From contig NZ_AP024412.1 of NCBI RefSeq assembly GCF_016865445.1, positions 1,178,001 through 1,242,000 on the forward strand: a stretch of 64,000 nt of DNA, read 5' to 3'. Position numbers and translations under genes: made by a program. Positions 19,500 through 36,858 of the stretch are shown piece after piece. The notes beneath the pieces were generated by a model. That model was not told the origin of the DNA. It made no database searches and was given only the letters and a program-made list of their open reading frames with translations. Numbering within the stretch: the stretch's first letter is position 1; every line of letters begins with the position of its first letter. The stretch is from Mariniplasma anaerobium (GTDB lineage: Bacteria > Bacillota_I > Bacilli_A > Acholeplasmatales > Acholeplasmataceae).

Positions 19500-22400
19500 C
19501 TAATCCCAAGAGTTTTCTTCATCTGTAAATCCATAATCTCTGTCTGCTACTCTTGCGTTGCTAATGGTAATAACAAAGTTACGTGTTCTATTTTTTGTTG
19601 AACTATTGATATAATAGTATTTCCCGTTATCATTTGAACTAAGATCAAGATCATTAACACTATCAAGTTCATCAGTTCCATTGAGTTCAATTTTTATATC
19701 ATAAACATAACCTTCAAAATCTAAAACTTTTACATTAAAGCTGAAGAATCCGCTCTTGTTTCTACCAAATCTAAACTTATAATTCTCATTGTCTAGCATA
19801 AACAATAAATTTGTTGTGTTATCATAGCTAGTTACTGTATTAAATTGTGGAAGTGTTGTAACAACTGTATCTGTAACTGGTAGGTTTGTTGACATATTTC
19901 TAACATTAATAACTATAACAACATCTTCTAAGTCAGGCTTAACGCCATTACCCTCATAAATCACCTCAAATATATATGAAACATTATAAGTGACATCTGT
20001 TACAGTGATATGATAATACACTACACTATTTCCATCTTCTGAAGTAACTCTGTATGTAATGATAATATCATCAAGCTCAGAAACACCTTCTGCTGATGTG
20101 AAGTCGGCTGCAAGTTGATAAACGTTTATATCTTCAGGACCTGATACTTCATCAGAATATTCTGTTGGAGAAATTTGTCTAGCAATGGTTGCACCAAGAG
20201 GTAAATAATTTAAGAAATAAGGAATATATTCATCTAATGGAATATTTGAAACTTGACCATCAACTCTAAAATCAACAACATTGTTAACATCTGCTCCATC
20301 ATAGTCAATACCTGCATAATAAATAGTTGGATCATATGCACTATTTGTCACAGGTATACCCTCAGTGTCAGATTCATAGATAAGCGCATAATTAGTTTCT
20401 GTTGCAAGTTCAGCAAACTGAATATCTAATAAATAAGCATTTGTACCTTCATTTTTATGAATATATAACATACCTAAATCGATTGGATTTTCTCCAGTTC
20501 TATTATAGGTAATCGAAAATGAATAATCTCCCGCTCCTGCTGTGTTATCCACTTCAAAAACAAGATAATCATCTGTAACTGAAACAGTGATGCCTTCAGT
20601 TCCTGTAGAACTTGTTTCAAAATATGCATCAGGATTATCAGCTGCTAAATTGTAAACATCTTCTGAATATAATGTATCAATACCATAGTTAATTAAAACC
20701 ATCGTAGAAAGTGATTCTCTAGCTACAACAACAGGATTAGATACATCCATCACTACTTTATTATTATTTCTATACACATCTTCAATCTCAATAGGTCTTT
20801 CATATATTCTATGTGTGTAATTTGTACTTGATCCGCTTTCAGATGTAATTGTATATGTTATATTATAGATTCTAAATCCTTCTAAATCAAAGGTAGTATT
20901 ATTTATTTGAACATTTGAAATCGTTGAAAAGTCAGAAATTTCAATTTGATCTAAGAAAGGCAATGTGTAGTATTGAACATCTGATTGATATACTTTTGCA
21001 CTTGCATCTACTACTGGAGTGATTACACTAGAACTAAAATCTAGAGGATATCCAAAATTAACATAAGTCTCAATTAAAGTTCCAGTAGGTGTGATTGTAC
21101 CAGATGAATAATGTTCTATAGTTTCTATAGTACTTAATGTTGATCCAGCCTTTGTAAACGTGTGATATTCTCTAGTAGCATAAGGAAGTGTTCTAAATCC
21201 AACGCGATAAAGACCGCTTTTAAGATTTGGATTTACAAATAAAGTAAATGCAAATGGATGGTTTGTAGCATTTATTGATAGTTCTGAAGTAAGTGAATAA
21301 TCTTCGTAATCAACAAATACATAACTACTTGTCAATGGATTATAATACTCAAGTGTAACATTATCCATTTCTTCATCACTACCTAAATTTAAGATATTAG
21401 TACCTGTAGGTAGAATGCCTGATGGATCTCTAAAATTAAATTTTAATGATGTTCCTACTTCTGCTACTGTAATATCAGATACCATTGTCGGATTTATACT
21501 ACCACCATCAATTTGATAACTATATGCATAAGGCATAGTGGCTGTGGAACTATACGAAACATTAAGTCGTATTTCGTAATCTGTAACATAATTATCATTA
21601 ATAAATGACGCAAAGTTTTGTGAAACTTGACTATATGAAGACATATATCCTATAGATACGATACCTGTTGTTGGATTATTGATATCAAATGTATAACTAA
21701 AAACAGGATCTAAATCAGGTTTGTTCTCATCAAGTATATCTGGATCCGCAAAATCTTTTAATAAGATTTGATAACTAGCATAGTATGCAGACATATTTGT
21801 ACCATAACTAAATCCATAATAATCTTCTAGTGTTTTAGCAATCACTGCATTATTAGGAAGTAATGCATCTCTAATATTATAATTAACAGTAGCTGTATTA
21901 CTATTAGTAAAGTCAAGTAAATTTAAATCTAAATCAAAAATTATAATGCCATGTTCTGAAGGCGTTGAAGGTTGCACAACAATTGGATTATAAAGTTTCG
22001 TATATGATCCTTCAATTTCTTTTAAATATAATGATTCTTCATTATCATCAAGCAACTCTGATTTATCGCTATATAAAGTCTGATATAGTGTCTGATAATC
22101 TAATTGAAGTGCTTCATACATCGAATCTGTGCTTGCATCAATACGAACAGGATCATCATAATCTATATCATATGCTTGAACAGTACCATCTAAATTATCT
22201 TGTAGTGGTAAAAGTTTCGCAAAGGATATATTGACTGGTAAAATAGCTCCAAATGTCGATCCAGATGAAGTCGAGAGCACATACATACCATTAGGTCTTG
22301 AATTAATAAACGTTGGAGATAAGTTTCCATTTTCTGAATAATAAATATATTCTTGTAAAACAGGGTCTGTTTGCATATCGAAAGCAGGACTGTAAATATA

Positions 22401-25400
22401 CTGTCCTGTTTCATCAATTTCTTCTTCTGTAACAATTGGAACTGGTAAAACTTCACCAAAATAATAACTGCTCGCACCTTCTTGATAGTAAGATGATGAA
22501 CCTTGAATTCTAGTATCTTCAAGATCCCAGACTTGATCATAATGTGGAAGACCATAAACATTTTTATATTCTGCACTTGTACCTACAACAACTTGTGAGC
22601 CTGAAACTGCACTCCATCCTGAATCATTGTAACCAGGCATCCCATTTCTAGAAATCATAGTGAATTCATTATCTGAATATGACGCACTAGCGTACCCAAT
22701 TTTAGAATACTCGCGTCCATAATAAGAAATTTCAGTACGATTAGTTGTTTTATTATAAGTTGTTCTAGTCCATTGATCAGTAGCTCCATCATAAGCATAC
22801 ATATATTTTTGTGAGGTTATTGTAATATTGGTTGTATATCTATATACGTCTGGATCACGTCTACCTGCATAAAAATATGTATAACCAGTAAAAACAGCTT
22901 GTGTTGTATCATTTTTTCTAGCACTATAATAAACCGCATCAGAAAAGTCAAAATATGATACTGATGATGTAAAATTTAACACTTGGTCTAAACGACCAAT
23001 TAAATCAACATTAGGGTCCATATTTACAATAAAGTTAAAGGTAGAATTTGAATCGTTATTTCCGTACATGATTTCACCTCTAGCACGTTGAAGACGTCCA
23101 AAAATACCACCAAATCCACGTTTGTCTTCTGGAAATAATCTGATATCACTTAATACATTTGGGAAAATGAATTCATCATTAACAGCATAAAATCCATCAC
23201 GAATGGTTTCATAATCTAGAACATCTACATTGTTATAATTAGAATTTGATGTTCCTCTATTAAACGCTCTAACGCGTCCATAATTAATTGCGGTATCAAT
23301 TTGAACATATTCAGTATCAAGAACAAAAGTTGCTCCAGCAATACCACCTGCAACATCAGTTGAACTGATTTCGCCATGATTAAGCATACGTCTCATAACT
23401 GATAGTCCATAACCAATAATTCCACCAGCTGCGGCGTTTATCCCAGGTCTATCTCCTGATGAGGATTTTGTCCATGCATAATTGTTATAATAAGCTGAAT
23501 ATACATAAACAGGTAATGAGGAATCAAATTCAATACTGCCTGCTGTTGTGTAAACAGTTGAATCACTATACTCTGAGATTGTAACTGTTAAAGCTGAAAC
23601 ATTTCCGTAATTAATTGAATTTGTTAAGATTGAGTCCACAATATAATTATTATATGATGTATAGGTAAGTGCGATATTTCCTTTTTCTAATTCAACATAT
23701 GTCGCACTTCCTAAAATTCCACCTGCTCTAGTAAAGTTTTTAGATTTTGCAATAATTTCACCTTTATTTGCAGTATCATAGATTCTTGAATTATCACTTA
23801 AAACAGCTCCTGCGATACCACCAATAATTACTCCATATCTAAATTTTAATACAACTCCACCAGTGGTATCGTCATCTGAAAAATATACATTAGCAGTATC
23901 TACATTACTTAGATTTTCAAATCTTAAATCACCTAAATTTGCTGTATCTTGAATATCACCATCGTTAAATGTCGCAATCCCACCACCAAATACATTAGCA
24001 TGACCAGTAATTCCATAAATACTTGAATCATATGTTGATATTAAATTTGCACTATTAATTGAGTTAATAATACCTATCGTAGCTTTAGGCATTGCTAAAG
24101 TACCATCTGGATCCATGTTTCCTGAATTATTATAATTCACAAAACCACCCACATAAATATTATTCTTTTGTGTTTGATTAACAGTATTTGATGTGATTCC
24201 AGCAATTATGATCTCGCCATTGACTAAACTATTTTTAATGTATTTTCCATTTGTAAGAGTTTTTGTTATACCAGCAACAAAGAGCTCTTTATCAGAACCT
24301 GATGTTTGCATTAAGACATTTGAAACTCTTAATTCTGCATTATATACTACATTTAAATAATTGATATTTGTTGATAAAGAAATACCAGCTATATTTTGAG
24401 TTTGAGACATTGTTTGATTTTGATAAGTAATGTCTCCCTTATTTTCTACAAAACGCAACAATGAAGCTTGATTTGTTGTTGAATAATAAATACCTGAATA
24501 ATTATAAGCACCATATATTTCTATATCTGCATTATTATATGACTGTGATAAAGTAACTCCAGAACCTACATTATAAACAAGTGTCGTATAATTTAGATTA
24601 CTAAAATTACCAGTTACTACACCAGTACTTTGGTTAACAGTATAATAGTTCAGTGAACCTGTGCTCATATTATATAAATGAATAAATTCAGTTGAAGTAG
24701 AGTGATTTGAAACAAGTACACTTGAAGCATTAACAATATTAGTTCCACGAGCTAATACATCAATAACTCCTTTATTTTTAAATTGACCAAATGTTAGATT
24801 CATTTCATAAGCTAATCCACTACTCATACCGATAACTCCACCTATATAAATGGTTTCTGTACCTGCTGATTTCATTTCACCAGCTGATAGTGTAGCTTCG
24901 TTGGTTAAAAGGCCTAAGACATGCTTAGCTTCTATAGTATTTGTAACTTTCCCAATAACGCCACCCATATATACTGTTGGTGCTTGTGAAACTGTCATTT
25001 GTGTAGATGTTGTGCCTAGTCCGTTAATATCTACATTATTATAAATATCTGTTAAAACCAGTTGTGTTTGTCCAGTACTACCAATGACACCACCAAAATG
25101 ATAACTTGGATTAATTAAAATATCAGTTCGATATACATGATCAGTATTTGGAATAATAGTTCCTTCTAAATAAACGCCTGAAACTGTTCCGCTTGCTCTA
25201 CCAATAAGACCACCAACATGCATTTCACCTAAAGTTTGATGTCCTAGGTCAATTTCAACATTACCAAGTACATTTCTTATTTCTCCAGAAATAAAATCTC
25301 CCGCAAGAATACCAACATACGTAGAAACACCAGCATAATTATCAGTATTAGTTAAAGTTAATTTTGCATCATAAAAAATCAGGTTGTAAACATCTCCTGT

Positions 25401-26909
25401 GAGTATACCAAACATTCCAGCATAATAATCTTGCTGAACCATGCCATCTACTATTTCTAAACCATATATAGATACTTCATTTGAAATGCCTGCAAAAACA
25501 CCAGCAAATTCAACTGTAGGTGTTGTATATGAGTTTGGTGCAACACTACTCATATCAATATTACTAGTTACAACATAATTCATATCACGAAATGGTGTTA
25601 AATTTGATTCTCTTGTATAATCTAACATCTTAGAAAAAGCGACTAAATCTAATGAATTATCAATTACATAATAAGTGCTTAGTGTTACGATATCTAAAGG
25701 ATCATTAGAAAGTGAAATATCTGTTGGAGTAGAAATTAATTCTAATCCAAACGTAGATGGATATTTAGCATATGGATCATTTTCTGAAGGATAATAATAC
25801 CATCCAGATCCTAAAATATTATTTGATGATCTAAGCTCAGATGTTTCCATAGATGTTGCATAACTATTTGGCGTATTAATATTATAAGAACTACCACTAA
25901 TTGTAACGATTTCTTGATATAAAGTATCATCATAAGCTAGATTACTATAAGTCCCAGTTGTGTGATTTGTATATAGCACAGGTTGAACAGTAAATCTTGA
26001 ACCATATGAAGCATTCATAACAACTCTTGATGCATAATAAGCATCATTAAATGTACCATAATTATCAAATAGAACACCCGAAGCTTGACCTGCTGAAGCG
26101 ATCATACGAATACCAGATACTAGTGCAGAAGTTCTATAATCAATGACATAAACATGATTCACATTACCAGTTGAGCGATTCTCGCCAACTATGTTTGCTG
26201 CTTTATATAAACTTGAACTTTCAAAATTAAATTCATATGTTGGATTGATTAATCCAAAATTTTGGATAGTTCCTTCGTTATACGCAAACATTGCATAATA
26301 TTCTACATAAGATATTTCTATTTCAAACTCTGTGCCTTCATATAAAGATTCAGTCAAAAGATCAAATCCTGAGAAATATAGATTAGTAATTTCAAAACCA
26401 TTACCATCAAATGTTCCAGTGAAAGCTTGTTGGTGATGGGTCGCTTCTATATAAAAATCATATCCAATTGGATTAAATTGTTTAGATTTCATGACTGAGT
26501 AATCAATATCTCTACCAAGCGCATAATCAAGACTTAAAAGTTTACTGATTGCTGCATCTGTAAGCTTAGTTTCATATTGAGTAAATTTAAGATTATAAGA
26601 TACATCAATTGAAAAACGATACAGTTCATTAGCTGTATCAAAACGAATTATTTTATCAAATGTAGCTAAATTAATAGCTTCAATTTGAGCTGAAGTTAAA
26701 GCGATATTATTTCTGAAATCAGAATATGTAATATAAATATCATCTGGTAAAACTAATGGTGGAAGTTCTTCATATGTATGATCTGTAAAAATGCCATATT
26801 GGTCTTGAGCAATAGATGGAAAACTAATATTTAACAATTGACTTCCAACAACAAAACTAAATATTGTAATAAAAACAAATAATACTATTTTTTTAAATGT
26901 ATTTCTCAT
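19500..26909 (-). CDS. Giant secreted GLUG-repeat surface protein
   Basis: A secreted protein of about 2469 residues. The N-terminus is a classical signal peptide (basic MRNTFKK, hydrophobic core, then SFPSIAQ). Residues about 100-1300 contain many short repeats ending in GGVIG, GGIAG, GGILG, GGIIG or GGIFG, like GLUG/beta-helix adhesins; the C-terminal half resembles repeated beta-sandwich modules. There is no LPXTG motif and no C-terminal membrane span. An in-frame TTG at 26915 is upstream, but ATG 26909 has GGAGG 9 nt ahead and overlaps the previous stop (TAATG). It is the last gene downstream of the fourth c-di-GMP riboswitch. Probably an adhesin or matrix protein; its ligand is unknown. 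Confidence 0.85.
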   Translation of the reverse strand: MRNTFKKIVLFVFITIFSFVVGSQLLNISFPSIAQDQYGIFTDHTYEELPPLVLPDDIYITYSDFRNNIALTSAQIEAINLATFDKIIRFDTANELYRFSIDVSYNLKFTQYETKLTDAAISKLLSLDYALGRDIDYSVMKSKQFNPIGYDFYIEATHHQQAFTGTFDGNGFEITNLYFSGFDLLTESLYEGTEFEIEISYVEYYAMFAYNEGTIQNFGLINPTYEFNFESSSLYKAANIVGENRSTGNVNHVYVIDYRTSALVSGIRMIASAGQASGVLFDNYGTFNDAYYASRVVMNASYGSRFTVQPVLYTNHTTGTYSNLAYDDTLYQEIVTISGSSYNINTPNSYATSMETSELRSSNNILGSGWYYYPSENDPYAKYPSTFGLELISTPTDISLSNDPLDIVTLSTYYVIDNSLDLVAFSKMLDYTRESNLTPFRDMNYVVTSNIDMSSVAPNSYTTPTVEFAGVFAGISNEVSIYGLEIVDGMVQQDYYAGMFGILTGDVYNLIFYDAKLTLTNTDNYAGVSTYVGILAGDFISGEIRNVLGNVEIDLGHQTLGEMHVGGLIGRASGTVSGVYLEGTIIPNTDHVYRTDILINPSYHFGGVIGSTGQTQLVLTDIYNNVDINGLGTTSTQMTVSQAPTVYMGGVIGKVTNTIEAKHVLGLLTNEATLSAGEMKSAGTETIYIGGVIGMSSGLAYEMNLTFGQFKNKGVIDVLARGTNIVNASSVLVSNHSTSTEFIHLYNMSTGSLNYYTVNQSTGVVTGNFSNLNYTTLVYNVGSGVTLSQSYNNADIEIYGAYNYSGIYYSTTNQASLLRFVENKGDITYQNQTMSQTQNIAGISLSTNINYLNVVYNAELRVSNVLMQTSGSDKELFVAGITKTLTNGKYIKNSLVNGEIIIAGITSNTVNQTQKNNIYVGGFVNYNNSGNMDPDGTLAMPKATIGIINSINSANLISTYDSSIYGITGHANVFGGGIATFNDGDIQDTANLGDLRFENLSNVDTANVYFSDDDTTGGVVLKFRYGVIIGGIAGAVLSDNSRIYDTANKGEIIAKSKNFTRAGGILGSATYVELEKGNIALTYTSYNNYIVDSILTNSINYGNVSALTVTISEYSDSTVYTTAGSIEFDSSLPVYVYSAYYNNYAWTKSSSGDRPGINAAAGGIIGYGLSVMRRMLNHGEISSTDVAGGIAGATFVLDTEYVQIDTAINYGRVRAFNRGTSNSNYNNVDVLDYETIRDGFYAVNDEFIFPNVLSDIRLFPEDKRGFGGIFGRLQRARGEIMYGNNDSNSTFNFIVNMDPNVDLIGRLDQVLNFTSSVSYFDFSDAVYYSARKNDTTQAVFTGYTYFYAGRRDPDVYRYTTNITITSQKYMYAYDGATDQWTRTTYNKTTNRTEISYYGREYSKIGYASASYSDNEFTMISRNGMPGYNDSGWSAVSGSQVVVGTSAEYKNVYGLPHYDQVWDLEDTRIQGSSSYYQEGASSYYFGEVLPVPIVTEEEIDETGQYIYSPAFDMQTDPVLQEYIYYSENGNLSPTFINSRPNGMYVLSTSSGSTFGAILPVNISFAKLLPLQDNLDGTVQAYDIDYDDPVRIDASTDSMYEALQLDYQTLYQTLYSDKSELLDDNEESLYLKEIEGSYTKLYNPIVVQPSTPSEHGIIIFDLDLNLLDFTNSNTATVNYNIRDALLPNNAVIAKTLEDYYGFSYGTNMSAYYASYQILLKDFADPDILDENKPDLDPVFSYTFDINNPTTGIVSIGYMSSYSQVSQNFASFINDNYVTDYEIRLNVSYSSTATMPYAYSYQIDGGSINPTMVSDITVAEVGTSLKFNFRDPSGILPTGTNILNLGSDEEMDNVTLEYYNPLTSSYVFVDYEDYSLTSELSINATNHPFAFTLFVNPNLKSGLYRVGFRTLPYATREYHTFTKAGSTLSTIETIEHYSSGTITPTGTLIETYVNFGYPLDFSSSVITPVVDASAKVYQSDVQYYTLPFLDQIEISDFSTISNVQINNTTFDLEGFRIYNITYTITSESGSSTNYTHRIYERPIEIEDVYRNNNKVVMDVSNPVVVARESLSTMVLINYGIDTLYSEDVYNLAADNPDAYFETSSTGTEGITVSVTDDYLVFEVDNTAGAGDYSFSITYNRTGENPIDLGMLYIHKNEGTNAYLLDIQFAELATETNYALIYESDTEGIPVTNSAYDPTIYYAGIDYDGADVNNVVDFRVDGQVSNIPLDEYIPYFLNYLPLGATIARQISPTEYSDEVSGPEDINVYQLAADFTSAEGVSELDDIIITYRVTSEDGNSVVYYHITVTDVTYNVSYIFEVIYEGNGVKPDLEDVVIVINVRNMSTNLPVTDTVVTTLPQFNTVTSYDNTTNLLFMLDNENYKFRFGRNKSGFFSFNVKVLDFEGYVYDIKIELNGTDELDSVNDLDLSSNDNGKYYYINSSTKNRTRNFVITISNARVADRDYGFTDEENSWD

Positions 26910-27682
26910 TACCAACTACCTCCCCATGGAGTATCTGCAAGACCCCAATTATAGACAGGAGCCATGTTTCCAGCTTGAACAGCCTCAACTAATATAGCAA
27001 ACTGTAATGTATAACCAAAAGATTTTGTATCAAATTCATCTCCATCATATTCTTCTATAAAAGATATGGTTTCTGGTGAAGAATCCATTTCACGTTCAAT
27101 GACTTGTGGAAAGTAATAATATCCGTCATTTAATTTATTATCAAACCAATGATCAATCTTAGTAACAGTATCATTTATTGTAATACCACCAAGTGCAGTT
27201 TCTGCATCAAAAAGATCATCATATAAAGTTCCATTGACATCCCATTCTCTTGAAAAAGCATAATTGATAGGTTGGTCCACAATGGATACTTCTCCTTTAT
27301 TGCCTTCAAAATCTATAGTACTCAAAGTAAGTGCATCAATGATAGAAACTCTTAAATATGTGTCTACAGTGCTATTAACATGTATATCAACTCTAAGATT
27401 ATCAATATAATCATCAGCTTCAAAATCTGTAACATTAATTGAATAAATTCCAGTTTTGGTCATTGTTGAAGTTCCAGTGTCAATACTAAATTCATCTGGT
27501 TCTAACATGATACCATCTAAATAAATTGAATAAGAAATATCGATTTTTGCTGCAGTCGCAACAAATGAATCTGTTCTATTAATTAAAACAAACCAAGTAT
27601 ATGTTACAGTACCTAATATAGTCAAAAACAAAAAAGCTATAGTCAAAATTATGTACTTAAACTTTTTTGTTAGACTCATCAT
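26909..27682 (-). CDS. Camelysin/TasA-like secreted protein 5
   Basis: A 257-residue secreted protein. Its N-terminus is a SipW-type signal (KKFKYIILTIAFLFLTILG, then TYTWFVLINRTDSF), where the TxxWF block sits just after the hydrophobic core as in the camelysin/TasA group. The rest is acidic and rich in beta-strand formers, ending in NWGLADTPWGGSW. It lies between camelysin-like 4 (7 nt) and the giant protein (1-nt overlap). Likely a fibre subunit or an adaptor for the giant protein; that role is inferred. Confidence 0.65.
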   Translation of the reverse strand: MMSLTKKFKYIILTIAFLFLTILGTVTYTWFVLINRTDSFVATAAKIDISYSIYLDGIMLEPDEFSIDTGTSTMTKTGIYSINVTDFEADDYIDNLRVDIHVNSTVDTYLRVSIIDALTLSTIDFEGNKGEVSIVDQPINYAFSREWDVNGTLYDDLFDAETALGGITINDTVTKIDHWFDNKLNDGYYYFPQVIEREMDSSPETISFIEEYDGDEFDTKSFGYTLQFAILVEAVQAGNMAPVYNWGLADTPWGGSW

Positions 27683-27689: not shown

Positions 27690-28415
27690 TTACCCCTCAT
27701 TTATAAGTGAATAAAGACCATCTATTAATAATTCACCATCTTGAAAACCAGTGCCTTCATCAGGTGTGTATGGATCTAGAGAAATTGAAAATTCTATAGT
27801 TAAAATATGTTGTGATGCAATATTAGATTCAAATACTGTAATGTTATTATCAATTATCATATTTTCGCCATCCATATAATAATCATATAAATTATTTATG
27901 CGATATTCCTCTAAATTATACCCTAAATATTCAATATCTGTTCCATCGATTACATCTAAGGATATATCGTCTTCCAAATAATAGGTGTTATCAATAAAAT
28001 CTTGACTTGAAGCATACCATGTTAGGGTTACAATCCCATTATCAATATAAAAGAAATCTGTTAAATCATATTCAATATCTGTTTGAGCTGCTCTTATATT
28101 ATCTAGAACAATATCAATACTCATATCTGGATCACCAATTAAATTTGAGTTTTCTACAATAACCCTAATATTTATGGAATCTCCAGGTAACATACTGGAT
28201 AAATATGCATTAAGTGTAGCTGGTTCATTAAAACTATTGTACCCTCCACCATTAATTCCATATTCAATATCTAAATTTAATTCTCTTTTAACAACTTCTG
28301 TATTGACTTCTTGTAAATTGCTTTCATTTGACAGGCTGAACCAAGCATAAACTGCTGTAGAAAATAAAGCAATAGTAATAAGTATAACAATAGTTGATTT
28401 TATTATTTCTTTCAT
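27690..28415 (-). CDS. Camelysin/TasA-like secreted protein 4
   Basis: About 241 residues, with a SipW-type N-terminus (IIKSTIVILITIALFSTAVYAWFSLSNES). The open frame reaches 28478, but that upstream part is the riboswitch terminator read as protein; ATG 28415 has AAGGAG 9 nt ahead and is the real start. The mature part is acidic and beta-rich. It is the first gene behind the fourth c-di-GMP riboswitch, so its expression is probably gated by c-di-GMP. The fibre role is inferred from the family. Confidence 0.7.
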   Translation of the reverse strand: MKEIIKSTIVILITIALFSTAVYAWFSLSNESNLQEVNTEVVKRELNLDIEYGINGGGYNSFNEPATLNAYLSSMLPGDSINIRVIVENSNLIGDPDMSIDIVLDNIRAAQTDIEYDLTDFFYIDNGIVTLTWYASSQDFIDNTYYLEDDISLDVIDGTDIEYLGYNLEEYRINNLYDYYMDGENMIIDNNITVFESNIASQHILTIEFSISLDPYTPDEGTGFQDGELLIDGLYSLINEG

Positions 28416-28447: not shown

Positions 28448-28541
28448 CAAAAAGCCAGTTGAACTCTTTCGAGTGCAACTGGCTACCTTAATTTAAGGCC
28501 CTATAGCTTTGCGTCACTAGGTTACCCTAGTTTTGCCAATG
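28448..28541 (-). ncRNA. Cyclic di-GMP-I (GEMM-I) riboswitch D with terminator
   Basis: Read on the minus strand: TTGGCAAAACTAGG, a GTAA tetraloop, CCTAG, then TGACGCAAAGC, TATAGGGCCT, AAGGTAGCCAGTTGC. This matches the c-di-GMP-I aptamer core (GGCAAAC, GNRA-capped P2, GACGCAAAGC, GGCCU and GUAGCC). AGCCAGTTG is also the first arm of a perfect terminator stem with CAACTGGCT (28453-28484) followed by five T. Since TTGGC near the 5' end can pair with GCCAG, aptamer and terminator compete for the same strand, suggesting that ligand turns expression on. It begins 9 nt after a stop codon, inside the operon. Confidence 0.88.
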
Positions 28542-28549
28542 TTTTTAAT

Positions 28550-29206
28550 CTATGTATTTTGTCGTTCTTTTAATATTTCTTCTAGTATTTCTTTTTTCTT
28601 TTGTTCTTTTAATGCTTCTAATTCTTTTTCATGTGCTTCTTTTAAAGCTAATTGTTTATCTTCTTGATATGTGTTAACTAAATGAATGATTTCAGAGATT
28701 AACATAATTGTTAAAACCACTGCTAAGCCGCCAAATATTAAACCTTTAGATGATGTCATTAATGATGCAACTGGCTTTAAGAATGTTATTTTTGATTGAT
28801 AGATACCTTCGAAATTTTCTTCAGTAACGTAGTCTTGATACTGTGGTTGATCTTGTGAAGCATTGTTATCACCTTTTGTAATGATACCTTCTGCATCAAA
28901 TCCAATAACCCTATGAATAACTAGTATGGGTGCACCTGAATTGTTTTTCCCTTGAAAGACAATCACGTCGTTTAATTCAACTTCATCTATACTAGCTTTT
29001 CTTATTAAAACCATATCATTGATATCTAATGAATCTTCTTGTGTCCCAACCATTGAATCTGTTGGTACAACAGCTAGAGCTTTTGAAAATATAAATACAG
29101 GTTCATTTCTTCTAAGTGCAATTGTTCCTGATATCATCAAGAATATTGATGATACGAATATTAAGATGGCAAGTGCCGTGAAAACCCCTGTAAGCGTCTT
29201 TTTCAT
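28550..29206 (-). CDS. sipW: ER-type signal peptidase I (SipW-like), second copy
   Basis: A 218-residue membrane peptidase. An N-terminal span (residues about 7-30) is followed by VPTDSM, whose Ser (about 51) is the catalytic residue, and VIHRVIG, whose His (about 98) replaces the Lys of ordinary bacterial signal peptidases, marking the archaeal/ER or SipW type. ITKGDNNASQD holds the conserved Asp. A second span is followed by a highly charged, helical cytoplasmic tail (about 175-218). AGGAG precedes ATG. It probably processes camelysin-like proteins 4 and 5 directly downstream. Confidence 0.88.
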   Translation of the reverse strand: MKKTLTGVFTALAILIFVSSIFLMISGTIALRRNEPVFIFSKALAVVPTDSMVGTQEDSLDINDMVLIRKASIDEVELNDVIVFQGKNNSGAPILVIHRVIGFDAEGIITKGDNNASQDQPQYQDYVTEENFEGIYQSKITFLKPVASLMTSSKGLIFGGLAVVLTIMLISEIIHLVNTYQEDKQLALKEAHEKELEALKEQKKKEILEEILKERQNT

Positions 29207-29405: not shown

Positions 29406-31265
29406 TTATTTCAATTGATCAACTTTTTTTTCTAATTTCTTAATAGCTTGGTCAGTAATTTTAGCTTTTTCTTTTTTAAGTCTTGCTTCAGATTGTTTAA
29501 CTAGTTTATCTTGCTGTTTTTTCAATCTTATTTTTTCTTGACTTCTTTGTTTAGCTAATTTTTCATTAAGTCGTTTTTGGTTTTCTTTATGTTGTTCTTT
29601 AATCTTTCTTAACTCTTCTTCATAAACCAATTTTGCCTTTTTCTTTTCTTCTTGGATGATTAATTTTTCTTCTGCTTTTAATTGTTTTCTAGTCTCTCTA
29701 ATCAAAGTTGTTGTTTCTTTATGTTCTTCTGTCATAACTTTCTTAGTTTCAGATACGTAAGAAAGATAAGTTGATAATGCTTCTTGGTTTTTCTTCAAAT
29801 TTTCTCTTTCTAACTTGATTTTTTCTTGAATTGCTGCTTTTTTAGCATCATCTTGTATCTTACGTTTTGTTTCTTTAATAAATTGCTTGTCAAGATCATC
29901 GATTTCTTTCATGATTCGTTTTTCTAGTCGAATTGTATTATTATAATCAACTTCTTTAATTTCTCGAATGATTCTAGCGACTCTTGCTTTTTCTTTAAGC
30001 TTATTAATTTCAGCTTCTGTATCATCTTTAACAAGCACTTTAAAATATGATTCTTCGCTATATGCATCATCTAAATCAAAATATGATTTATAAATTGCAT
30101 TTGATATTTCTAGAGTTTCTCTTAAAGCTTTTCTTAATGCCACTTCAAAGTTTGAAGAGTCTTCAAGATGTTCATCTAGAGATTTTTTAAATTGTTTTTT
30201 ATACTGTTCAAGATAGTATTCATTAATATTAACATCTTCAATATCAACTGAAGGGTTAGATTCAATTAAGTCTTCTAACCTTCTTGTAACAATTTTAGGA
30301 TTTTTTTTACGATACTCTTTTATATCTAAGTATTGATAATGTTCTTCTAATGCTTTTTGATTACCATAAACTGTTGCGAAAGTCTGTAATGCTAATTGAT
30401 ATACATTTTTAGTATAATATCTATCAAAAGTTAAATTTTGTTCTTGAATATCAACATCAAAATCTAGAGTATGATAACGATCTAAAAACATCCATAACGT
30501 ATAACAATTTTTATAATCAATATTTTTCAATAAGATTGAAGTTTGCATAATAGGTGCTTTTACAGGTGTTGATCCTTTTAAACCTACAATAAACGGAGTC
30601 ATTTTAAGTCCATTTACAAGTTTTAAAAGATTCCTAATTCTTGATAATAGCTCTTGATTTGTCTGATTGATTTTTTCATCGATCAAATCTTCTTTAACGA
30701 TGAAATTAATATGCATATCAACTTCTGAGTCTTGAATCTTAAATTGTGATTTTAAATCAAAATGTTTTTTGTTAAATGAATCTACATTTTTCTTAACTAA
30801 ATCATGTCTTCTACTAACAAAATCAAATAAACGATCGATTAATGTCTTGACAAATCTATTTTCATAAATTGCATATTCGATTTCTGCTTGTGTAGTTAAA
30901 ATTCTTTTAGGTATGACATCGGTGCCTCTAATCTCTTTGATTAAATGTGTATGAGATGCAAGATGTCTAATTGAGTCACTATTTGTCTTTTTTGCTTTTT
31001 CAATTGCTACAATTTCTTGATCATAACGCAATCCTGATTTAGGATCTCTAATAATTTTGTTTAAACTAGGGAAAAATGATTCGATTGTTTTTATCCAATC
31101 TTCATGAAATGTTTTTATTTCTGTAATACTTTTTTGATAGAGTTCATTTTCTCCACCTAAAAAGGCTTGATAGAAGTCATCTGGAAAAGGAAGTTCCATT
31201 TCCAAATCATGATAGGCTGAATTTAATTCTTGATGAAATTTTCTTAAATCGCCTAATTTCTTCAT
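29406..31265 (-). CDS. Coiled-coil protein with possible McrC/DUF2357-like segment
   Basis: A 619-residue cytoplasmic-looking protein with no signal or span. Residues about 120-145 read PKRILTTQAEIEYAIYENRF followed by VK, recalling the block in McrC/DUF2357 proteins that partner McrB-type ATPases; this resemblance is by eye only. Residues about 430-619 are an extended coiled coil very rich in Lys, Glu and Gln. No PD-(D/E)XK nuclease motif is obvious. It follows the AAA ATPase gene by 12 nt (AGGAG before ATG), so they probably act as a pair. The function in this surface locus is unknown; scaffold or assembly factor is an inference. Confidence 0.7.
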   Translation of the reverse strand: MKKLGDLRKFHQELNSAYHDLEMELPFPDDFYQAFLGGENELYQKSITEIKTFHEDWIKTIESFFPSLNKIIRDPKSGLRYDQEIVAIEKAKKTNSDSIRHLASHTHLIKEIRGTDVIPKRILTTQAEIEYAIYENRFVKTLIDRLFDFVSRRHDLVKKNVDSFNKKHFDLKSQFKIQDSEVDMHINFIVKEDLIDEKINQTNQELLSRIRNLLKLVNGLKMTPFIVGLKGSTPVKAPIMQTSILLKNIDYKNCYTLWMFLDRYHTLDFDVDIQEQNLTFDRYYTKNVYQLALQTFATVYGNQKALEEHYQYLDIKEYRKKNPKIVTRRLEDLIESNPSVDIEDVNINEYYLEQYKKQFKKSLDEHLEDSSNFEVALRKALRETLEISNAIYKSYFDLDDAYSEESYFKVLVKDDTEAEINKLKEKARVARIIREIKEVDYNNTIRLEKRIMKEIDDLDKQFIKETKRKIQDDAKKAAIQEKIKLERENLKKNQEALSTYLSYVSETKKVMTEEHKETTTLIRETRKQLKAEEKLIIQEEKKKAKLVYEEELRKIKEQHKENQKRLNEKLAKQRSQEKIRLKKQQDKLVKQSEARLKKEKAKITDQAIKKLEKKVDQLK

Positions 31266-31277: not shown

Positions 31278-32819
31278 TTAGTATGATTTCAAAATCGATG
31301 TTAAATATGACTGACATTCTACAAATGAATTTTTACCGAACAAACGATCAAGTAATACTGATAGTTCACCAATTTCTACTTGTGAGAAAGGTAGATTTAA
31401 ACTTTCAAATTTTCTAAATATTTTTCTAGCTACAATATAATCTAGTGCTTCATATTCTGAGCCACCAGCTGCTACATATACAGGAACAAATGATCTAATT
31501 TGTTTCATGATACGATTACCAAACGTAACTTTTAAGTTTTCAGTTATATATTTATCTAATTTTTCTAAGTTTTGAATTGCTTTTAAACTTAATGGATGAT
31601 CTTTTACTGCTGTTCTAAATAATTCTTGTAGATAATCATTTGACATGATGACACCATCAGTTGGAGGTGCATCGATGAAATTTGATTTAGTGTTAATTTC
31701 TATTGGTGTTGCTCTGTCATAAACTTTATCTGTAATTGTAAATGTTGAATCATCTTTATTTGCTGTTCCAACAAACCAAACATTTTGTGGAAGTAGTATC
31801 TTACCTTTTTTAAAGTTTTTAGGATCTGCAGGTTGTGTACTTGGGACGATATCAATAAACCATTGATCTGTATCAGGCATTTCAAGTAAAGATAGCAATT
31901 CTGCAAAATAATATTCAACACGCGCTAAGTTCATTTCATCTAGAACAATGATACAAATATCATCACGATATGTTGTTTCATAAATTGCTTCTAGAAATTC
32001 TGTTTCGTTAAACTTCTTTGTAAATTCATTTAAGTATCCAATCATTTCAGCGCGATCACGCCAAGATGGTTGAACAGCAATAATTTTGGAATCATTACCA
32101 AAGAATTTACCCATTGCATAAGGTAGGGAAGTTTTCCCGGTACCAGATATACCTTCTAAAATCATTGTTTTAGAAGATGCAAATCCTGCAAAGAATGCAG
32201 AGATGATTTTTCTATCATAGAAAAGTCCTAATTGAGATGCAGAGAAGTTAATAAATCTAGTTACTAGTTCTCGAAGATTTATCATATCTTCTTCTTTCAT
32301 CCTAATAGATGTCATTCTACTTTCGTAGTCTTTGTCAATATCAATAAGTTTAGTGAATCTTGATGGACCTTTATGTCCTTCTTCTTGTTCTTCTATAAAC
32401 TCTTGATCAGCTTTTCGTTGCTCTTCTGGAGATAATCCTAAGTTAGAAACCTTCAAAGCAAGTATCTTATTTTTCTCATCAATTAATTCAACAGTTTTTT
32501 CATTTAAAAATGATATTTCTTCTAAAAGCTCATCTTTTTCAATTTCTCGCTTTATAAAGCGGAAATATCGACTTGACCATTGATATAATTTGAGTAAAAA
32601 GAATATAATAAAAGCTAAATTAATAATTAAAACAACAAAAGCCATCACCCAATCGAGTAATGTGTATTGTGAACTTGACAGTATGAACTTTTGAAAGTAT
32701 TCAACAACATTATGAAAAAATAAATCGGCAAAGATTCCAAAAAGATTCTTAAAAAATTCACCGATATTTGCAAAAAGTTCTCTAATGAAGTCGATATAGT
32801 AACGTGCAAATTCTACCAT
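31278..32819 (-). CDS. Membrane-anchored McrB-like AAA+ ATPase
   Basis: A 513-residue protein. One N-terminal span lies at about 54-78 (DWVMAFVVLIINLAFIIFFL), followed by a coiled coil. The AAA domain has Walker A LEGISGTGKTS (about 221-229), VQPSWRDRAEMIGYLNEF, Walker B IIVLDEMNLARVEYYFAELL (about 288-305) and NVWFVGTANKDDSTF with KVYDRATP, the layout of the McrB/AAA_5 group. The GTP-type MNTADR motif of McrB is replaced by ANKDDST. AAGGAGA precedes ATG. It lies between the first signal peptidase and the coiled-coil partner. An energy-driven assembly or export role is inferred; a defence role is the alternative. Confidence 0.82.
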   Translation of the reverse strand: MVEFARYYIDFIRELFANIGEFFKNLFGIFADLFFHNVVEYFQKFILSSSQYTLLDWVMAFVVLIINLAFIIFFLLKLYQWSSRYFRFIKREIEKDELLEEISFLNEKTVELIDEKNKILALKVSNLGLSPEEQRKADQEFIEEQEEGHKGPSRFTKLIDIDKDYESRMTSIRMKEEDMINLRELVTRFINFSASQLGLFYDRKIISAFFAGFASSKTMILEGISGTGKTSLPYAMGKFFGNDSKIIAVQPSWRDRAEMIGYLNEFTKKFNETEFLEAIYETTYRDDICIIVLDEMNLARVEYYFAELLSLLEMPDTDQWFIDIVPSTQPADPKNFKKGKILLPQNVWFVGTANKDDSTFTITDKVYDRATPIEINTKSNFIDAPPTDGVIMSNDYLQELFRTAVKDHPLSLKAIQNLEKLDKYITENLKVTFGNRIMKQIRSFVPVYVAAGGSEYEALDYIVARKIFRKFESLNLPFSQVEIGELSVLLDRLFGKNSFVECQSYLTSILKSY

Positions 32820-32844: not shown

Positions 32845-33567
32845 TTATTTAGATTTTTTGTCTGTGCCTTTATCGTTTTTTAACTCAGCTAATATTTCTT
32901 GACGTATTTTTTCTTTTTCTGATTCTAAAAGTGCTTTTTGATCTTCTTTTTCGTGTGCATATTTTTCTTCCATTTTTGCACGATTAAGCTGAAGAATATT
33001 TCTTCCTAATATGAATCCTTCAAAAGCTAAAATAAATATGACTGGTAAGATCACAAATAATGCGAATCCTGTAGGTGATTGAATATAATCTAAACCATTA
33101 CCTAATCCAGATATTTTAGAACTGTAAGTCGCTAATGCTTGATCAAATGCTATTGGTTGATCAGGTTGCGTGTTTGTATTTTGTCCGATATAATTGTAAT
33201 CAGCTTGAGTTATCAAGTATTCTTCTTCTAAATTTATTTCGACAATTCTATGGGTATTGAACTCTTTGATTGTCATATCAAAATAAGTTACAATATCTCC
33301 CACTTGTAATTCTTTAACTGATTCCTCATCAAGCATCTTCACGAAGATCATATCGCCTTTTTCAAACGAATCTTCTTGATCACCAAACATTGAGTTTGAT
33401 TGTACTGATAAGAATCCTGTACCAAAGATATTTGCAATATCGTTTTCTTTTTTAACTTTAATGTTAGCTAATGAAAATATAAGTAATAAAATAATAAGTA
33501 AATAAAACAGTGAATTTAGTGATATTGATAATACTTTTTTCGTCGTTGATTTTTGTTTCTCGTCCAT
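32845..33567 (-). CDS. sipW: ER-type signal peptidase I (SipW-like), first copy
   Basis: A 240-residue membrane peptidase of the SipW/ER type. A first span (about 18-35) is followed by VQSNSMFG with catalytic Ser (about 59), EKGDMIFVK, and FNTHRIVEI with the catalytic His (about 106). The usual TKGD motif appears as TQAD, keeping the Asp. A second span (about 168-190) is followed by a charged helical tail of about 50 residues. AAAGGAG lies 9 nt before ATG. SipW enzymes cut the special signals of TasA/camelysin proteins, and three such genes lie directly upstream. Confidence 0.9.
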   Translation of the reverse strand: MDEKQKSTTKKVLSISLNSLFYLLIILLLIFSLANIKVKKENDIANIFGTGFLSVQSNSMFGDQEDSFEKGDMIFVKMLDEESVKELQVGDIVTYFDMTIKEFNTHRIVEINLEEEYLITQADYNYIGQNTNTQPDQPIAFDQALATYSSKISGLGNGLDYIQSPTGFALFVILPVIFILAFEGFILGRNILQLNRAKMEEKYAHEKEDQKALLESEKEKIRQEILAELKNDKGTDKKSK

Positions 33568-33713: not shown

Positions 33714-34676
33714 TTAAACAGTTACACCTGAAAATACGAATTGAACAGATATTGTTCTAGATAAAACTGAGTTGAATGTATTTGCATCCCAACCTTCTAA
33801 CCAAACTCTAATCATTACTTGACCAAAGAAGTCAGCTTGATAATCAATTGGATCTCCTGATACATCTACCATTTCAATAACTAGATCGTCAGATATTACA
33901 GTTTGTGTTGCTAAAGTTACAACAGCATCAGCACCAAAAGGAAGTGTATTATTTTTTTCATAGTAATAATTCATTGATCCGCCAGTACCTAAATAGTCAT
34001 CAGCATTTCCTAAAATACCATCTATGTTTGATAATGGTCCTCTAAGGTCTCCACCAACACCTAATACATGATTAGCTGCAGTTGCTGGTTTTTCATATGC
34101 TACTGTATGTCCACCATAAGCTGCTTCAGAAATCATTGCAATTCTCATTGCATTTGATGCATCAACATTAACTGTCCCAGGAGTAGTTCTAGGTACATCA
34201 CCAAAATCTGTGAAAGCTACATCTATAGTCCAAGGATCTGCATCTGATGTTATACCAACTGATGTCCAGTCAATTTGATTTGCAGTATCTGATCTAAAGT
34301 TTAATGGGATTTCTAAATAACCATTAGTCGTTGCAGTCATTGATAATGCACCTAAAGTCATAAAGTTAACACCATCTGTAGTTGTTACGTGATTAAAAAC
34401 GATTCTACCTGCATTATATTCTGATTCAATGTAAGTTTGAATTGCTTCTGTTGTTAATGTTGTAACCCAGTTTAGTGAATTTGGATTATTTAATCCATCA
34501 TCATGTGCTCCTAATGCAACTTCAATCCCTGAATCAGCTACGATATCAGCTTCAAATGGTTGAATAGCTGACGTATTAGTCAGTGTGAACCACGCAAATG
34601 TTGTAGTTCCCAGTGCTACCACTGTTAATACAACCGTAATAATCGATAATAATAATTTTCTTGTAATCTTTGTCAT
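33714..34676 (-). CDS. Camelysin/TasA-like secreted protein 3
   Basis: A 320-residue secreted protein with a SipW-type N-terminus: basic MTKITRKL, a hydrophobic core, then GTTTFAWFTLTNTS, the camelysin/TasA pattern. The mature part is acidic and beta-rich and ends with IRVWLEGWDANTFNSV and a final ISVQFVFSG strand, a motif shared with camelysin-like 1 and 2. AAGGAG lies 9 nt before ATG. The strong hairpin follows it. In Bacillus such proteins form fibres or act as surface proteases; a fibre subunit is the favoured reading here. Confidence 0.75.
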   Translation of the reverse strand: MTKITRKLLLSIITVVLTVVALGTTTFAWFTLTNTSAIQPFEADIVADSGIEVALGAHDDGLNNPNSLNWVTTLTTEAIQTYIESEYNAGRIVFNHVTTTDGVNFMTLGALSMTATTNGYLEIPLNFRSDTANQIDWTSVGITSDADPWTIDVAFTDFGDVPRTTPGTVNVDASNAMRIAMISEAAYGGHTVAYEKPATAANHVLGVGGDLRGPLSNIDGILGNADDYLGTGGSMNYYYEKNNTLPFGADAVVTLATQTVISDDLVIEMVDVSGDPIDYQADFFGQVMIRVWLEGWDANTFNSVLSRTISVQFVFSGVTV

Positions 34677-34736: not shown

Positions 34737-35708
34737 TCAATCCGTAATTTCTGGTGGAATCAATGCTTTAAACTGTAATTGAATCTTGACTCGATCGTTT
34801 TCGATCGCATCAAATGCATCTGCATCCCAACCCTCTAACCAAATATTAATTCGTACCTTACCACTGTAAATTGTTTTACCTTTTTCATTTACTCTACCAG
34901 TATCTTGTAAAACAGTTACTAGTGAATCATCATCTAATGATTGATAAGGATTTGTTGGATCAATTTCTGTAAGTCTGTAACTTACTTCTTGCATAGTTTC
35001 TGGTAATGTTATAAAGTATCTAGTTCTTTCTATAAAATAACTATAAGCTCCATAAGGTTTACCGTAACCTCTTTGTTCATCTCCACTTGGATCAAAAACA
35101 AATTTTTGTAAATCTTGAACGTTTCTTAAATCTAATTCATTTGTTTCATCTGTTAATTCAATGATTGCAATTCTTATACTATCACTTGCATAATATCTAT
35201 CTTCATCACCCTTTTGAATTAAATCAGTATCATCAGGGCCATACCAGAAATCATATTTTGCTGTCCACATGACACCATTTGATACAACATATGTTCCGGT
35301 TGCTGAAGTATCGTAAGATACGCTATTTGATACATTATTTACTAAATAAACATAATGTTCTACAACACTTGTTTGAAAATATAAGTCAAAACTTAAATAA
35401 TGTTCGTTTGCAACTGCTGGAGCTACATCTCTTAGTCCACCAGTTTGGAAAGTTACACCATCTGTTGAAGTTACATCTACTAATGAAATATCATCAAATA
35501 GTTCGTATAAGCTTTCAGCAGGTAATTGTGAACTAAAATTAATTCCGTCAAGGGAGATTTGTAATTCGTCTCCTCCTGATGCTGCTAATGATAAGCCTTC
35601 AATATTATTAATAGTTGATAAGCTAATCCAAGCAAACGTTACTGTTCCAAATGTTACAAATAATAAAATCAATGTGATCAGTGATATATATAATTTTTTA
35701 ATCATCAT
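34737..35708 (-). CDS. Camelysin/TasA-like secreted protein 2
   Basis: A 323-residue paralogue of the next gene. The N-terminus IKKLYISLITLILLFVTFG is followed by TVTFAWISLSTINN, a SipW-type signal. The C-terminal part has INIWLEGWDADAFDAIEN and a closing KIQLQFKA strand. AAGGTG precedes the two adjacent ATGs. It lies 11 nt after camelysin-like 1 and about 60 nt before camelysin-like 3, the three forming one transcript under the triple riboswitch. Confidence 0.75.
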   Translation of the reverse strand: MMIKKLYISLITLILLFVTFGTVTFAWISLSTINNIEGLSLAASGGDELQISLDGINFSSQLPAESLYELFDDISLVDVTSTDGVTFQTGGLRDVAPAVANEHYLSFDLYFQTSVVEHYVYLVNNVSNSVSYDTSATGTYVVSNGVMWTAKYDFWYGPDDTDLIQKGDEDRYYASDSIRIAIIELTDETNELDLRNVQDLQKFVFDPSGDEQRGYGKPYGAYSYFIERTRYFITLPETMQEVSYRLTEIDPTNPYQSLDDDSLVTVLQDTGRVNEKGKTIYSGKVRINIWLEGWDADAFDAIENDRVKIQLQFKALIPPEITD

Positions 35709-35719: not shown

Positions 35720-36433
35720 TTAATTCAGGCCATCTATTGAAAAGTTCATTTGAAGTTTAATTCTTCCGCCTAAGATGTCATCGTCTGTGTCTGGGTCATA
35801 TCCTTCTAACCACATGATTATACTGAACTTTTTAACTTGACCAGGTTCAAACTTAGTAAAATTTTCTCTTGCGATAATCGTATCATTTACAAAGAATTTA
35901 GGTGTTGGCATAATTTCTGGATAATAAGGAAGTTGCCCATCTGCATTTACTTTGTCAATTTTTTGATACATTGTTTCATCGCCATCTTCTATAACTAAAA
36001 TGCGAATTGCTTCATCTAAATTTCTATTTATTTCTGTCATTCTTATATGGTATGTAATATCTACTGTTTCAAAACCATCGTTTTTAACATAGAATGTATA
36101 AGCCACATAATCATAATCTGGATCTACATAATTCCCATCAGTTTGATCGACTTCATCAAGTTTCAACCAACTGTATGTCATATCTCTTGCATCTTCTATT
36201 GGATCTGTTAGAAGTCTAGGTGATGGATTTGTGAAGTCATAATCACTTGAAAGGATGATTCCTCTATTGTATGCATCATAATCCATTGACATCACGAAGT
36301 TACCAGCATTTTGTCCATAAAATGTAATTATTGCGAATGTTATACTTAATAACCCTGTAATAATAACCCCGAAGGTAAATATTCTACTTCTGAGTTTCTT
36401 TTTCTTTACTTCTAAAACTTTTGAAAGTCTCAT
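35720..36433 (-). CDS. Camelysin/TasA-like secreted protein 1
   Basis: About 237 residues and the first gene behind three c-di-GMP riboswitches. The N-terminus is very basic (KVLEVKKKKLRSR) with a hydrophobic core and then ITFAIITFYGQNAGNF, a variant of the SipW-type signal. It ends with IIMWLEGYDPDTDDDI and a KLQMNFS strand, related to camelysin-like 2 and 3. The frame is open to 36475, but that part overlaps the terminator of riboswitch C; GAAGGTGG lies ahead of ATG 36433, which I chose. It may be a minor or initiating subunit, given the divergent signal. Confidence 0.7.
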   Translation of the reverse strand: MRLSKVLEVKKKKLRSRIFTFGVIITGLLSITFAIITFYGQNAGNFVMSMDYDAYNRGIILSSDYDFTNPSPRLLTDPIEDARDMTYSWLKLDEVDQTDGNYVDPDYDYVAYTFYVKNDGFETVDITYHIRMTEINRNLDEAIRILVIEDGDETMYQKIDKVNADGQLPYYPEIMPTPKFFVNDTIIARENFTKFEPGQVKKFSIIMWLEGYDPDTDDDILGGRIKLQMNFSIDGLN

Positions 36434-36457
36434 AGAACCACCTTCTTTCTTATAAAT

Positions 36458-36547
36458 AAAAACCAGCATCATCACTTAGAATGACAACTGGCTACCATTT
36501 ATAGGCCCTATAGCTTTGCGTCCTTAGGTTTCCCTAAGTTTGCCCTT
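36458..36547 (-). ncRNA. Cyclic di-GMP-I riboswitch C (third of three in tandem)
   Basis: On the minus strand: GGGCAAACTTAGG, a GAAA tetraloop, CCTAAG, GACGCAAAGC, TATAGGGCCT, TGGTAGCCAGTTGTC. All conserved c-di-GMP-I core elements are present, including the canonical GACGCAAAGC. AGCCAGTTG is followed by a hairpin whose far arm is GATGCTGGTT with a T run, at 36461-36494. It is the aptamer nearest to the first camelysin-like gene. Confidence 0.9.
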
Positions 36548-36580
36548 ATACATTATATATATCTTAAGTTTTTTTAAAAC

Positions 36581-36672
36581 AAAAAGCCAGCATCATTATT
36601 TCTAATGACAACTGGCTACCATTTGACAGGCCCTTTAGTTTTGCGCCGCTAGGTTTCCCTAGGTTTGCCTTT
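36581..36672 (-). ncRNA. Cyclic di-GMP-I riboswitch B (second of three in tandem)
   Basis: On the minus strand: GGCAAACCTAGG, GAAA, CCTAG, CGGCGCAAAAC, TAAAGGGCCTG, TGGTAGCCAGTTGTC. AGCCAG pairs with CTGGCT in a terminator stem (36585-36617) followed by five T. The core reads GGCGCAAAAC instead of GACGCAAAGC. It is almost identical to riboswitch A, so one is a recent copy of the other. Confidence 0.88.
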
Positions 36673-36705
36673 TACATTCTTAATTTTGCTTTAAAAACAG
36701 GAAAT

Positions 36706-36799
36706 AAAAAAAGTCAGCATCATTATCTCTAATGACAACTGGCTACCATTTGACAGGCCCTTTAGTTTTGCGCCGCTAGATTTCCCTAGGTTTGCCTTT
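36706..36799 (-). ncRNA. Cyclic di-GMP-I riboswitch A (first of three in tandem)
   Basis: On the minus strand: AAAGGCAAACCTAGG, GAAA, TCTAG, CGGCGCAAAAC, TAAAGGGCCTG, TGGTAGCCAGTTGTC, with a terminator hairpin (AGCCAGT with GCTGACT, plus ATAATGA-type inner arms) at 36712-36744 and a run of seven T. It is the promoter-proximal aptamer, starting about 24 nt after the predicted transcription start. Confidence 0.88.
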
Positions 36800-36829
36800 A
36801 ACATCTGGATTTCTCCTATTTGTAGTTAC

Positions 36830-36858
36830 ATTCTAATACAAGTCAATACTTTTGTCAA
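36830..36858 (-). promoter_or_regulatory. Promoter of the riboswitch-controlled surface operon
   Basis: On the minus strand TTGACA (36858-36853) and TAGAAT (36835-36830) are separated by exactly 17 nt. Transcription would start near 36823 and run through riboswitches A, B and C. It lies just after the truncated giant gene; the remaining bases of this 484-nt stretch without a gene hold only the riboswitches and A/T-rich spacers. Confidence 0.8.

Follow-up and report, generated by a model that had tools for sequence, protein, structure and literature searches.

A conserved locus of Mariniplasma anaerobium joins an McrBC-related NTPase pair to SipW-type signal peptidases, putative TasA-like proteins, and c-di-GMP riboswitches

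In Bacillus, a dedicated SipW-type signal peptidase is encoded with beta-rich secreted subunits, in tapA-sipW-tasA of B. subtilis and in sipW-calY of B. cereus, while McrBC type IV restriction systems combine the AAA+ domain of McrB with the DUF2357 domain of McrC. Relatives of both occur together in a locus of Mariniplasma anaerobium, which we analyzed within a stretch of 64,000 nucleotides (the window; G000:C1:1178001-1242000) of a 1.9-Mb genome of two contigs with a G+C content of ~30%. The organism belongs to the Acholeplasmataceae, and the Mollicutes, the class containing this family, have no cell wall (PMC11122141). The closest described relative is CoCoPALM, a group to which Bell et al. 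2024 devote a single passage, deferring the details (PMC11090510). As given in that passage, CoCoPALM comprises an NxD-type McrB GTPase fused to an FtsB-like segment with a transmembrane (TM) helix and a coiled coil, a nuclease-free McrC homologue with a coiled coil, and signal peptidases. The NxD form marks the branch formed by CoCoNuT and CoCoPALM, the CoCoPALM variant of the signature is usually followed by D or E, and its relatives in that paper are predicted defense systems (PMC11090510). The passage is silent on riboswitches, GGDEF-EAL proteins, giant adhesins, and tandem modules, and neither TasA nor camelysin is mentioned in the searched portions of the main text. A literature search returned no follow-up paper on CoCoPALM, and nothing on this locus was found in the literature combining Acholeplasma with cyclic di-GMP (c-di-GMP), signal peptidase, or camelysin.

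The locus is best filed, pending a tree that includes the sequences of those authors, as a CoCoPALM-type system joined to TasA-like substrates and c-di-GMP control. It has an McrB-like NTPase whose NxD motif is followed by D and whose AAA domain comes after a TM segment and a possible coiled coil, an McrC homologue with a coiled coil, and two signal peptidases. The original prediction had found no described system to match this combination; the substrates and the c-di-GMP control are indeed absent from the CoCoPALM passage (PMC11090510), but the association of the NTPase with DUF2357 and SipW-type proteins fits that group. What is new here is the set of likely substrates, a double c-di-GMP control, a design with a conserved core and a swappable cassette, and a derived branch that lacks SipW and camelysin-like genes and keeps the NTPase, DUF2357, and a dead GGDEF-EAL protein. 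Unlike tapA-sipW-tasA and sipW-calY, the locus encodes two peptidases, an McrBC-derived NTPase pair, and a giant protein, carries c-di-GMP riboswitches, and belongs to a bacterium with no cell wall; its sequences also fall under the Pfam camelysin and SipW equivalog cutoffs. Compared with McrBC, it has neither a nuclease nor a DNA-specificity domain, gains a membrane anchor, and has NxD in place of NxxD. At the level of the locus, the assignment is strong, and the genes very probably form a dedicated c-di-GMP-controlled surface assembly system. Its features, in 5' to 3' order along the minus strand, are as follows.

42971..45568, minus strand: GE2, membrane GGDEF-EAL protein of 865 amino acids (aa), at the locus head, as conserved in relatives (Pfam; motif alignment)
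41541..42974, minus strand: GE1, GGDEF-EAL protein of 477 aa with a single TM segment, beside the NTPase also in loci lacking SipW (Pfam; motif alignment)
36918..41339, minus strand: GIANT2 remnant, C-terminal part (1473 aa) of a giant of ~2323 aa whose module, the second, was lost (DNA compared with the tandem module of G024)
36830..36858, minus strand: promoter candidate upstream of the tandem riboswitches, sigma-70-like TTGACA-17-TAGAAT, 11/12 (consensus scan only)
36480..36806, minus strand: three tandem c-di-GMP-I aptamers at 36731-36806, 36604-36679, and 36480-36554 (Rfam RF01051, folds, repeat analysis)
35720..36433, minus strand: CAM1, 237 aa, N-terminal TM/signal segment and C-terminal W-LEG-D motif, the most widely conserved subunit
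34737..35708, minus strand: CAM2, 323 aa, SipW-type signal (TFAWI), CAM3 homologue
33714..34676, minus strand: CAM3, 320 aa, SipW-type signal (TFAWF), predicted TasA/FimA-like donor-strand fold
32845..33567, minus strand: SIP1, S26 signal peptidase of endoplasmic reticulum (ER)/SipW type (SxSM, HR), cytosolic charged tail (TIGR02228; alignment)
31278..32819, minus strand: membrane-anchored McrB-like NTPase, 513 aa, Walker A GISGTGKT, DEMN, NxD motif (NKDD)
29406..31265, minus strand: McrC-like DUF2357 domain with a ~200-aa coiled coil (Pfam DUF2357, McrC N-terminal, E 5e-13; AlphaFold2 [AF2] model)
28550..29206, minus strand: SIP2, second S26 signal peptidase, charged tail (Peptidase_S26 24.3 bits, above cutoff)
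28471..28547, minus strand: fourth c-di-GMP-I riboswitch, heading the CAM4-CAM5-GIANT cassette, overlapping terminator, fold z -5.1
27690..28415, minus strand: CAM4, 241 aa, SipW-type signal (VYAWF), corrected start
26909..27682, minus strand: CAM5, 257 aa, SipW-type signal (TYTWF), stop overlapping the GIANT ATG
19500..26909, minus strand: GIANT, ~2470 aa, secreted, with repeats, GG-x-x-G motifs, and no cysteine, start ATG 26909, swappable between relatives

All open reading frames (ORFs) of the locus lie on the minus strand, where the original prediction had placed them. Its gene inventory proved real and linked but incomplete, having missed GE1 and GE2 (41541-45568) and the truncated second giant (36918-41339). 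Longer ORF starts for CAM1 and CAM4 overlap the aptamers and were rejected; ATG 36433 and ATG 28415, which have ribosome-binding sites, are preferred. The number of promoter-like sites in the region did not exceed that in shuffled sequences by consensus scan.

The NTPase is present in 43 of the 88 Acholeplasmataceae genomes searched, with the gene order of the locus kept, and relatives of it occur in 83 of 392 genomes sampled across the phylum. A scan of named genomes confirmed 501 relatives among candidate stretches, and the best 80 of these were kept as named loci, from Acholeplasmatales, Izemoplasmatales, Anaeroplasma, Clostridia, Christensenellaceae, and Ruminococcus. In 77/80 of them, a SipW-like gene is found at most three genes upstream or four downstream of the NTPase, and DUF2357 is among the next two genes in 70/80; some exceptions are cuts at contig ends or module 1 copies without DUF2357. 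Upstream of the NTPase, 58 of the 80 have a camelysin-like (CAM) gene; because the linkage counts use iterated profiles, CAM labels in distant loci are less certain than those of the peptidase, NTPase, and DUF2357. The genes are thus linked in relatives and not scattered, and close NTPase relatives adjoin SipW/camelysin-type genes. The proposal of a self-contained c-di-GMP-controlled surface system is well supported by the same order in ~40 family genomes and its extension far into Bacillota.

The relationship of the NTPase and its partner to McrB and McrC was supported by profile and model comparisons. In a profile search against the Protein Data Bank (PDB), McrB was the sole match to the NTPase (E 4e-4), and N-x-D-D/E was found in all 135 of the 135 NTPase sequences with a readable GT-N motif. 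One TM segment precedes the AAA domain, as read from the sequence, and so does a charged, heptad-like stretch, judged by eye only. In the AF2 model of the DUF2357 protein, residues 416-618 form one continuous helix, and McrC chains are the four best VIA rows (Z 7.1-7.6, 136-144 residues aligned). The model contains no PD-(D/E)xK nuclease fold and the protein has no nuclease Pfam match, its C terminus being a coiled coil. Its profile retrieved only coiled-coil matches among PDB sequences, and the relation to McrC rests on Pfam and the model. These results bear out the earlier description of a membrane-anchored McrB-like AAA ATPase with a coiled-coil partner.

Other McrB-like proteins occur as well. 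Elsewhere in the M. anaerobium genome, a 12-TM McrB-like ATPase with a DUF2357 partner (L051 7665-11885, G000:C1) is split into frames of 664 and 220 aa; it is intact in G023 and G024. Membrane NxD ATPase-DUF2357 sets take further forms. Tandem ATPase-DUF2357-ATPase sets with very large single-TM proteins occur in L151-L154 and L048, the two ATPases of L048 having near-identical AAA domains. A ~600-aa ATPase with ~4 TM segments accompanies a 3-TM SipW-like protein and two small proteins with AWI/SipW-like signals, mostly also with a 12-TM protein (L155-L160). The 12-TM NxD form (L161-L166) has no SipW link of its own. Soluble distant McrB-like proteins used as a contrast set (L168-L170) lie on branches separate from those of the membrane forms and lack SipW neighbors; their place in the tree is unsure owing to long branches.

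Both predicted ER-type signal peptidases are present and are of S26/SipW type by profile and alignment. SIP1 passes the cutoff of the ER/archaeal-type model TIGR02228 (57.6 bits; cutoff 51.85), and SIP2 is borderline (51.0 bits, or 52 with neighbors). In both, the active site shows its Ser (SxSM) and His (HR) signatures, hydrophobic segments lie close to each end, and the tail is charged; neither reaches the SipW equivalog NF046067 (65.2 and 30.0 bits; cutoff 190). The description of five camelysin/TasA-like proteins held for part of the set. CAM1 to CAM3 are homologous over most of their length and form one family (hhalign 98.2% and 99.8%), and SipW-type signals are present; CAM4 resembles that family in no more than the signal and first strands, CAM5 in the signal region alone, and none of the five reaches Pfam camelysin. 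The AF2 model of CAM3, a confident one (pLDDT 86), has the TasA fibre as its first-ranked Foldseek match (E 0.017), and the top VIA-align rows are FimA (Z 5.1) and TasA (Z 5.0, root mean square deviation 3.6, 134 aligned), with archaeal threads/TasA-like proteins and bundling pili lower; at these scores, a jelly-roll/Ig-like donor-strand fold is a candidate assignment. The CAM3 profile matched no PDB sequence up to E 5. The supposed giant GLUG-repeat protein is a giant with nine GG-x-x-G motifs, but Pfam GLUG matches neither it nor the related giants of L031 and L034. A 4693-aa open frame elsewhere in the genome (L171, G000:C1 around 1024760) is weakly camelysin profile-like over 47 positions (E 0.1).

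All four predicted c-di-GMP-I riboswitches were confirmed, scoring 53 to 64.5 bits against the RF01051 gathering cutoff of 35. The three tandem units are a 102-nucleotide direct repeat spaced 124 and 127 bases apart, and each aptamer is followed by a terminator-like hairpin that overlaps its 3' strand. The terminator 5' arm, GCCAGUUG, doubles as the aptamer 3' strand; at all four copies the hairpin 5' arm (AGCCAGUUG...) is the conserved aptamer 3' strand, and a U-run follows the hairpin. The two folds exclude each other, and bound ligand is therefore expected to keep transcription from terminating. Such an overlapping terminator is the arrangement expected of an ON switch, the logic shown for the Bc2 c-di-GMP-I riboswitch of B. 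thuringiensis, in which an aptamer and terminator precede the gene for the surface protein Cap, an adhesin (PMC4933901). Here, unlike Bc2, three tandem aptamers and a fourth inside the operon control an assembly system, and by analogy they would also act in the ON direction. When the 80 named loci were searched with a model made from 21 aptamers, 31 of them, Clostridia included, proved to contain 47 copies in total, and 45 of the 47 lie directly before a gene of the system. Among the 88 family genomes, 41 have both NTPase and riboswitch, 7 only one, and 40 neither, an agreement in 81/88 (p 5e-17) whose significance is inflated by genome relatedness. A c-di-GMP-I riboswitch also lies upstream of a 282-aa protein and signaling genes with no fibre link (L053 7888-7963). 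In the M. anaerobium genome, a second operon headed by a riboswitch (L052 7680-12591; G000:C1:1512000-1531999) has genes for camelysin-like proteins, for a CBM5/12 protein, and for three SipW-like proteins, of which one lacks SxSM; it has no NTPase.

GE1 and GE2 belong to the conserved locus. In GE2 the GGDEF site is degenerate (RVDQF) and the EAL site intact (EALIR, DDFGTG), so the protein is probably a c-di-GMP phosphodiesterase. GE1 is degenerate at both catalytic sites (QNDEF in GGDEF; DGFGLD for DDFGTG in EAL, with EALIR and most other EAL residues kept), as in receptors of the LapD/FimX type, which makes it a candidate c-di-GMP receptor judging by its motifs. The Ruminococcus equivalent is an EAL-only protein without the motifs. 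With 19 GGDEF matches in the genome, c-di-GMP can be made.

Comparison with congeners divided the locus into two parts. The proteins from GE2 to SIP2 are 64-89% identical to those of the congener G022, while CAM4, CAM5, and GIANT are only 21-25% identical; relatives thus swap what lies behind the fourth riboswitch and keep the assembly core. An alternative cassette in L039, L069, L073, and L076 consists of a CAM-like gene and a ~620-aa AWF-signal protein. Most congeners and many relatives have two tandem modules ~14.7 kb apart. Relative to G024, the window genome lacks 9.4 kb (L031 5447-14809); the junction (window 41418-41425) shows an overlap of 8 bases, and the deletion leaves the C-terminal part of the second giant. 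On this comparison, we rejected the 1473-aa ORF at 36918-41339 as a second giant in its own right. Since both NTPase copies are present in all four congeners, loss in the window lineage is the simplest reading. In G024, module 1 has only a 119-aa frame at the expected SIP1 position (L031 8336-8695), and SIP1 looks broken there.

Nine family loci (L043, L045, L047, L050, L055, L057, L059, L060, and L061) have no SipW or CAM genes. They have a giant surface protein, a degenerate GE1-like protein, the NTPase, and DUF2357 in a row, the giant being present wherever the contig reaches (L061 is cut by a contig end); one giant has fourteen cadherin-like domains. In a FastTree tree of the NTPase, the nine form a single clade nested in the fibre clade (support 92), and they therefore look derived. 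GE1 stays with the NTPase in these loci while peptidases and subunits are lost, which is the main reason for proposing a post-translational c-di-GMP gate.

These observations suggest a restriction-derived, c-di-GMP-gated NTPase platform that matures and assembles donor-strand-type fibres and adhesins, a full mechanism to which we give a probability of roughly 60%. At high c-di-GMP, the aptamers would hold the 5' arm of the overlapping terminators, allowing read-through into the fibre core (CAM1 to CAM3, SIP1, NTPase, DUF2357, and SIP2) and, separately, into the CAM4-CAM5-GIANT cassette. The CAM proteins would be exported, cut by both SipW-type peptidases, and polymerized by donor-strand exchange as TasA is, and GIANT would be displayed as an adhesin. 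The membrane-anchored McrB relative, activated by the McrC-like DUF2357 protein, may form with the coiled coils a platform in the cytoplasm at which nucleotide hydrolysis is coupled to the release, ordering, or retention of precursors at the membrane. GE1 could contact the NTPase and gate this platform by binding c-di-GMP, and GE2 would switch the system off by degrading it. More tentatively, at somewhat short of an even chance, a GTPase and its activator, both derived from McrBC, may have given up DNA restriction to become the c-di-GMP-gated motor of an uncharacterized fibre/adhesin machine with interchangeable cargo cassettes, widespread in Bacillota including the wall-less Mollicutes, in which the degenerate EAL protein is the post-translational gate.

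Several points weigh against the proposed platform, and some of them favor other explanations. TasA in Bacillus polymerizes without any such NTPase, and the riboswitch-headed SipW/camelysin operon elsewhere in this genome means that SipW-type maturation in itself does not require the NTPase. In relatives, module 1 has no DUF2357 or SIP2 of its own. The EAL site of GE1 keeps several residues and DDFG is intact in its equivalents from a few Clostridia, so GE1 may not be dead everywhere. The motor-free systems are also an argument that the fibres self-assemble like TasA and that the NTPase pair is a membrane quality-control chaperone, which extracts or clears jammed precursors and signal peptidases and does not drive assembly. 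AAA+ proteins are commonly unfoldases, and the charged cytosolic tails of SIP1 and SIP2 could recruit the NTPase. However, the linkage to particular substrates hardly varies, and a degenerate c-di-GMP protein stands beside the NTPase even without SipW; both suggest a regulated function and not housekeeping, and we consider this explanation rather unlikely. Whether there are fibres at all is the issue in another: the products could be monomeric or short surface adhesins plus a giant adhesin, with the CAM proteins ordinary secreted beta-sandwich proteins. No CAM protein matches Pfam camelysin PF12389 (best in the locus, 12.2 bits; cutoff 22.5), the structural scores of CAM3 are middling and under the clear-match level of the tool, the fold family is common to CAM1 to CAM3 only, and CAM calls in distant loci come from iterated profiles, with a risk of drift along the signal region. 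SipW-type signals speak for fibre subunits, and so does the repeated appearance of donor-strand pilins among the top structural matches, leaving the adhesin explanation unlikely.

It is very improbable, in our assessment, that the NTPase-DUF2357 pair is a type IV restriction or abortive-infection defense system merely sharing an operon with surface genes. The homology to McrB and McrC would fit such a role, as would the predicted defense function of the relatives in PMC11090510 and the match of the PADLOC model PDC-M26A to the AAA part of the NTPase (E 6e-41). That model, however, matched every NxD McrB protein tried, in the AAA part only and most strongly in a soluble one, and we rejected it as evidence of a defense identity; defense databases flag these surface-system ATPases as candidate phage defense because the AAA domain matches PDC-M26A. 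The modeled DUF2357 protein has no nuclease fold, the NTPase has a TM anchor where a DNA-binding domain would be, the neighbors across Bacillota are SipW/camelysin-type genes, and coregulation by c-di-GMP riboswitches is unlike defense.

The analysis supplies likely substrates and a control circuit for CoCoPALM, an McrBC-derived group so far named only in passing. Related loci in the culturable Acholeplasma granularum and Ruminococcus flavefaciens, and probably in A. laidlawii, make the idea testable. The other membrane NxD sets suggest that membrane McrB/McrC pairs may have a general role at the cell surface, and the locus itself suggests that restriction-type NTPases were recruited to build cell-surface structures. 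If true, bacteria without a cell wall in which fibres could be anchored would have a fibre system regulated by c-di-GMP.

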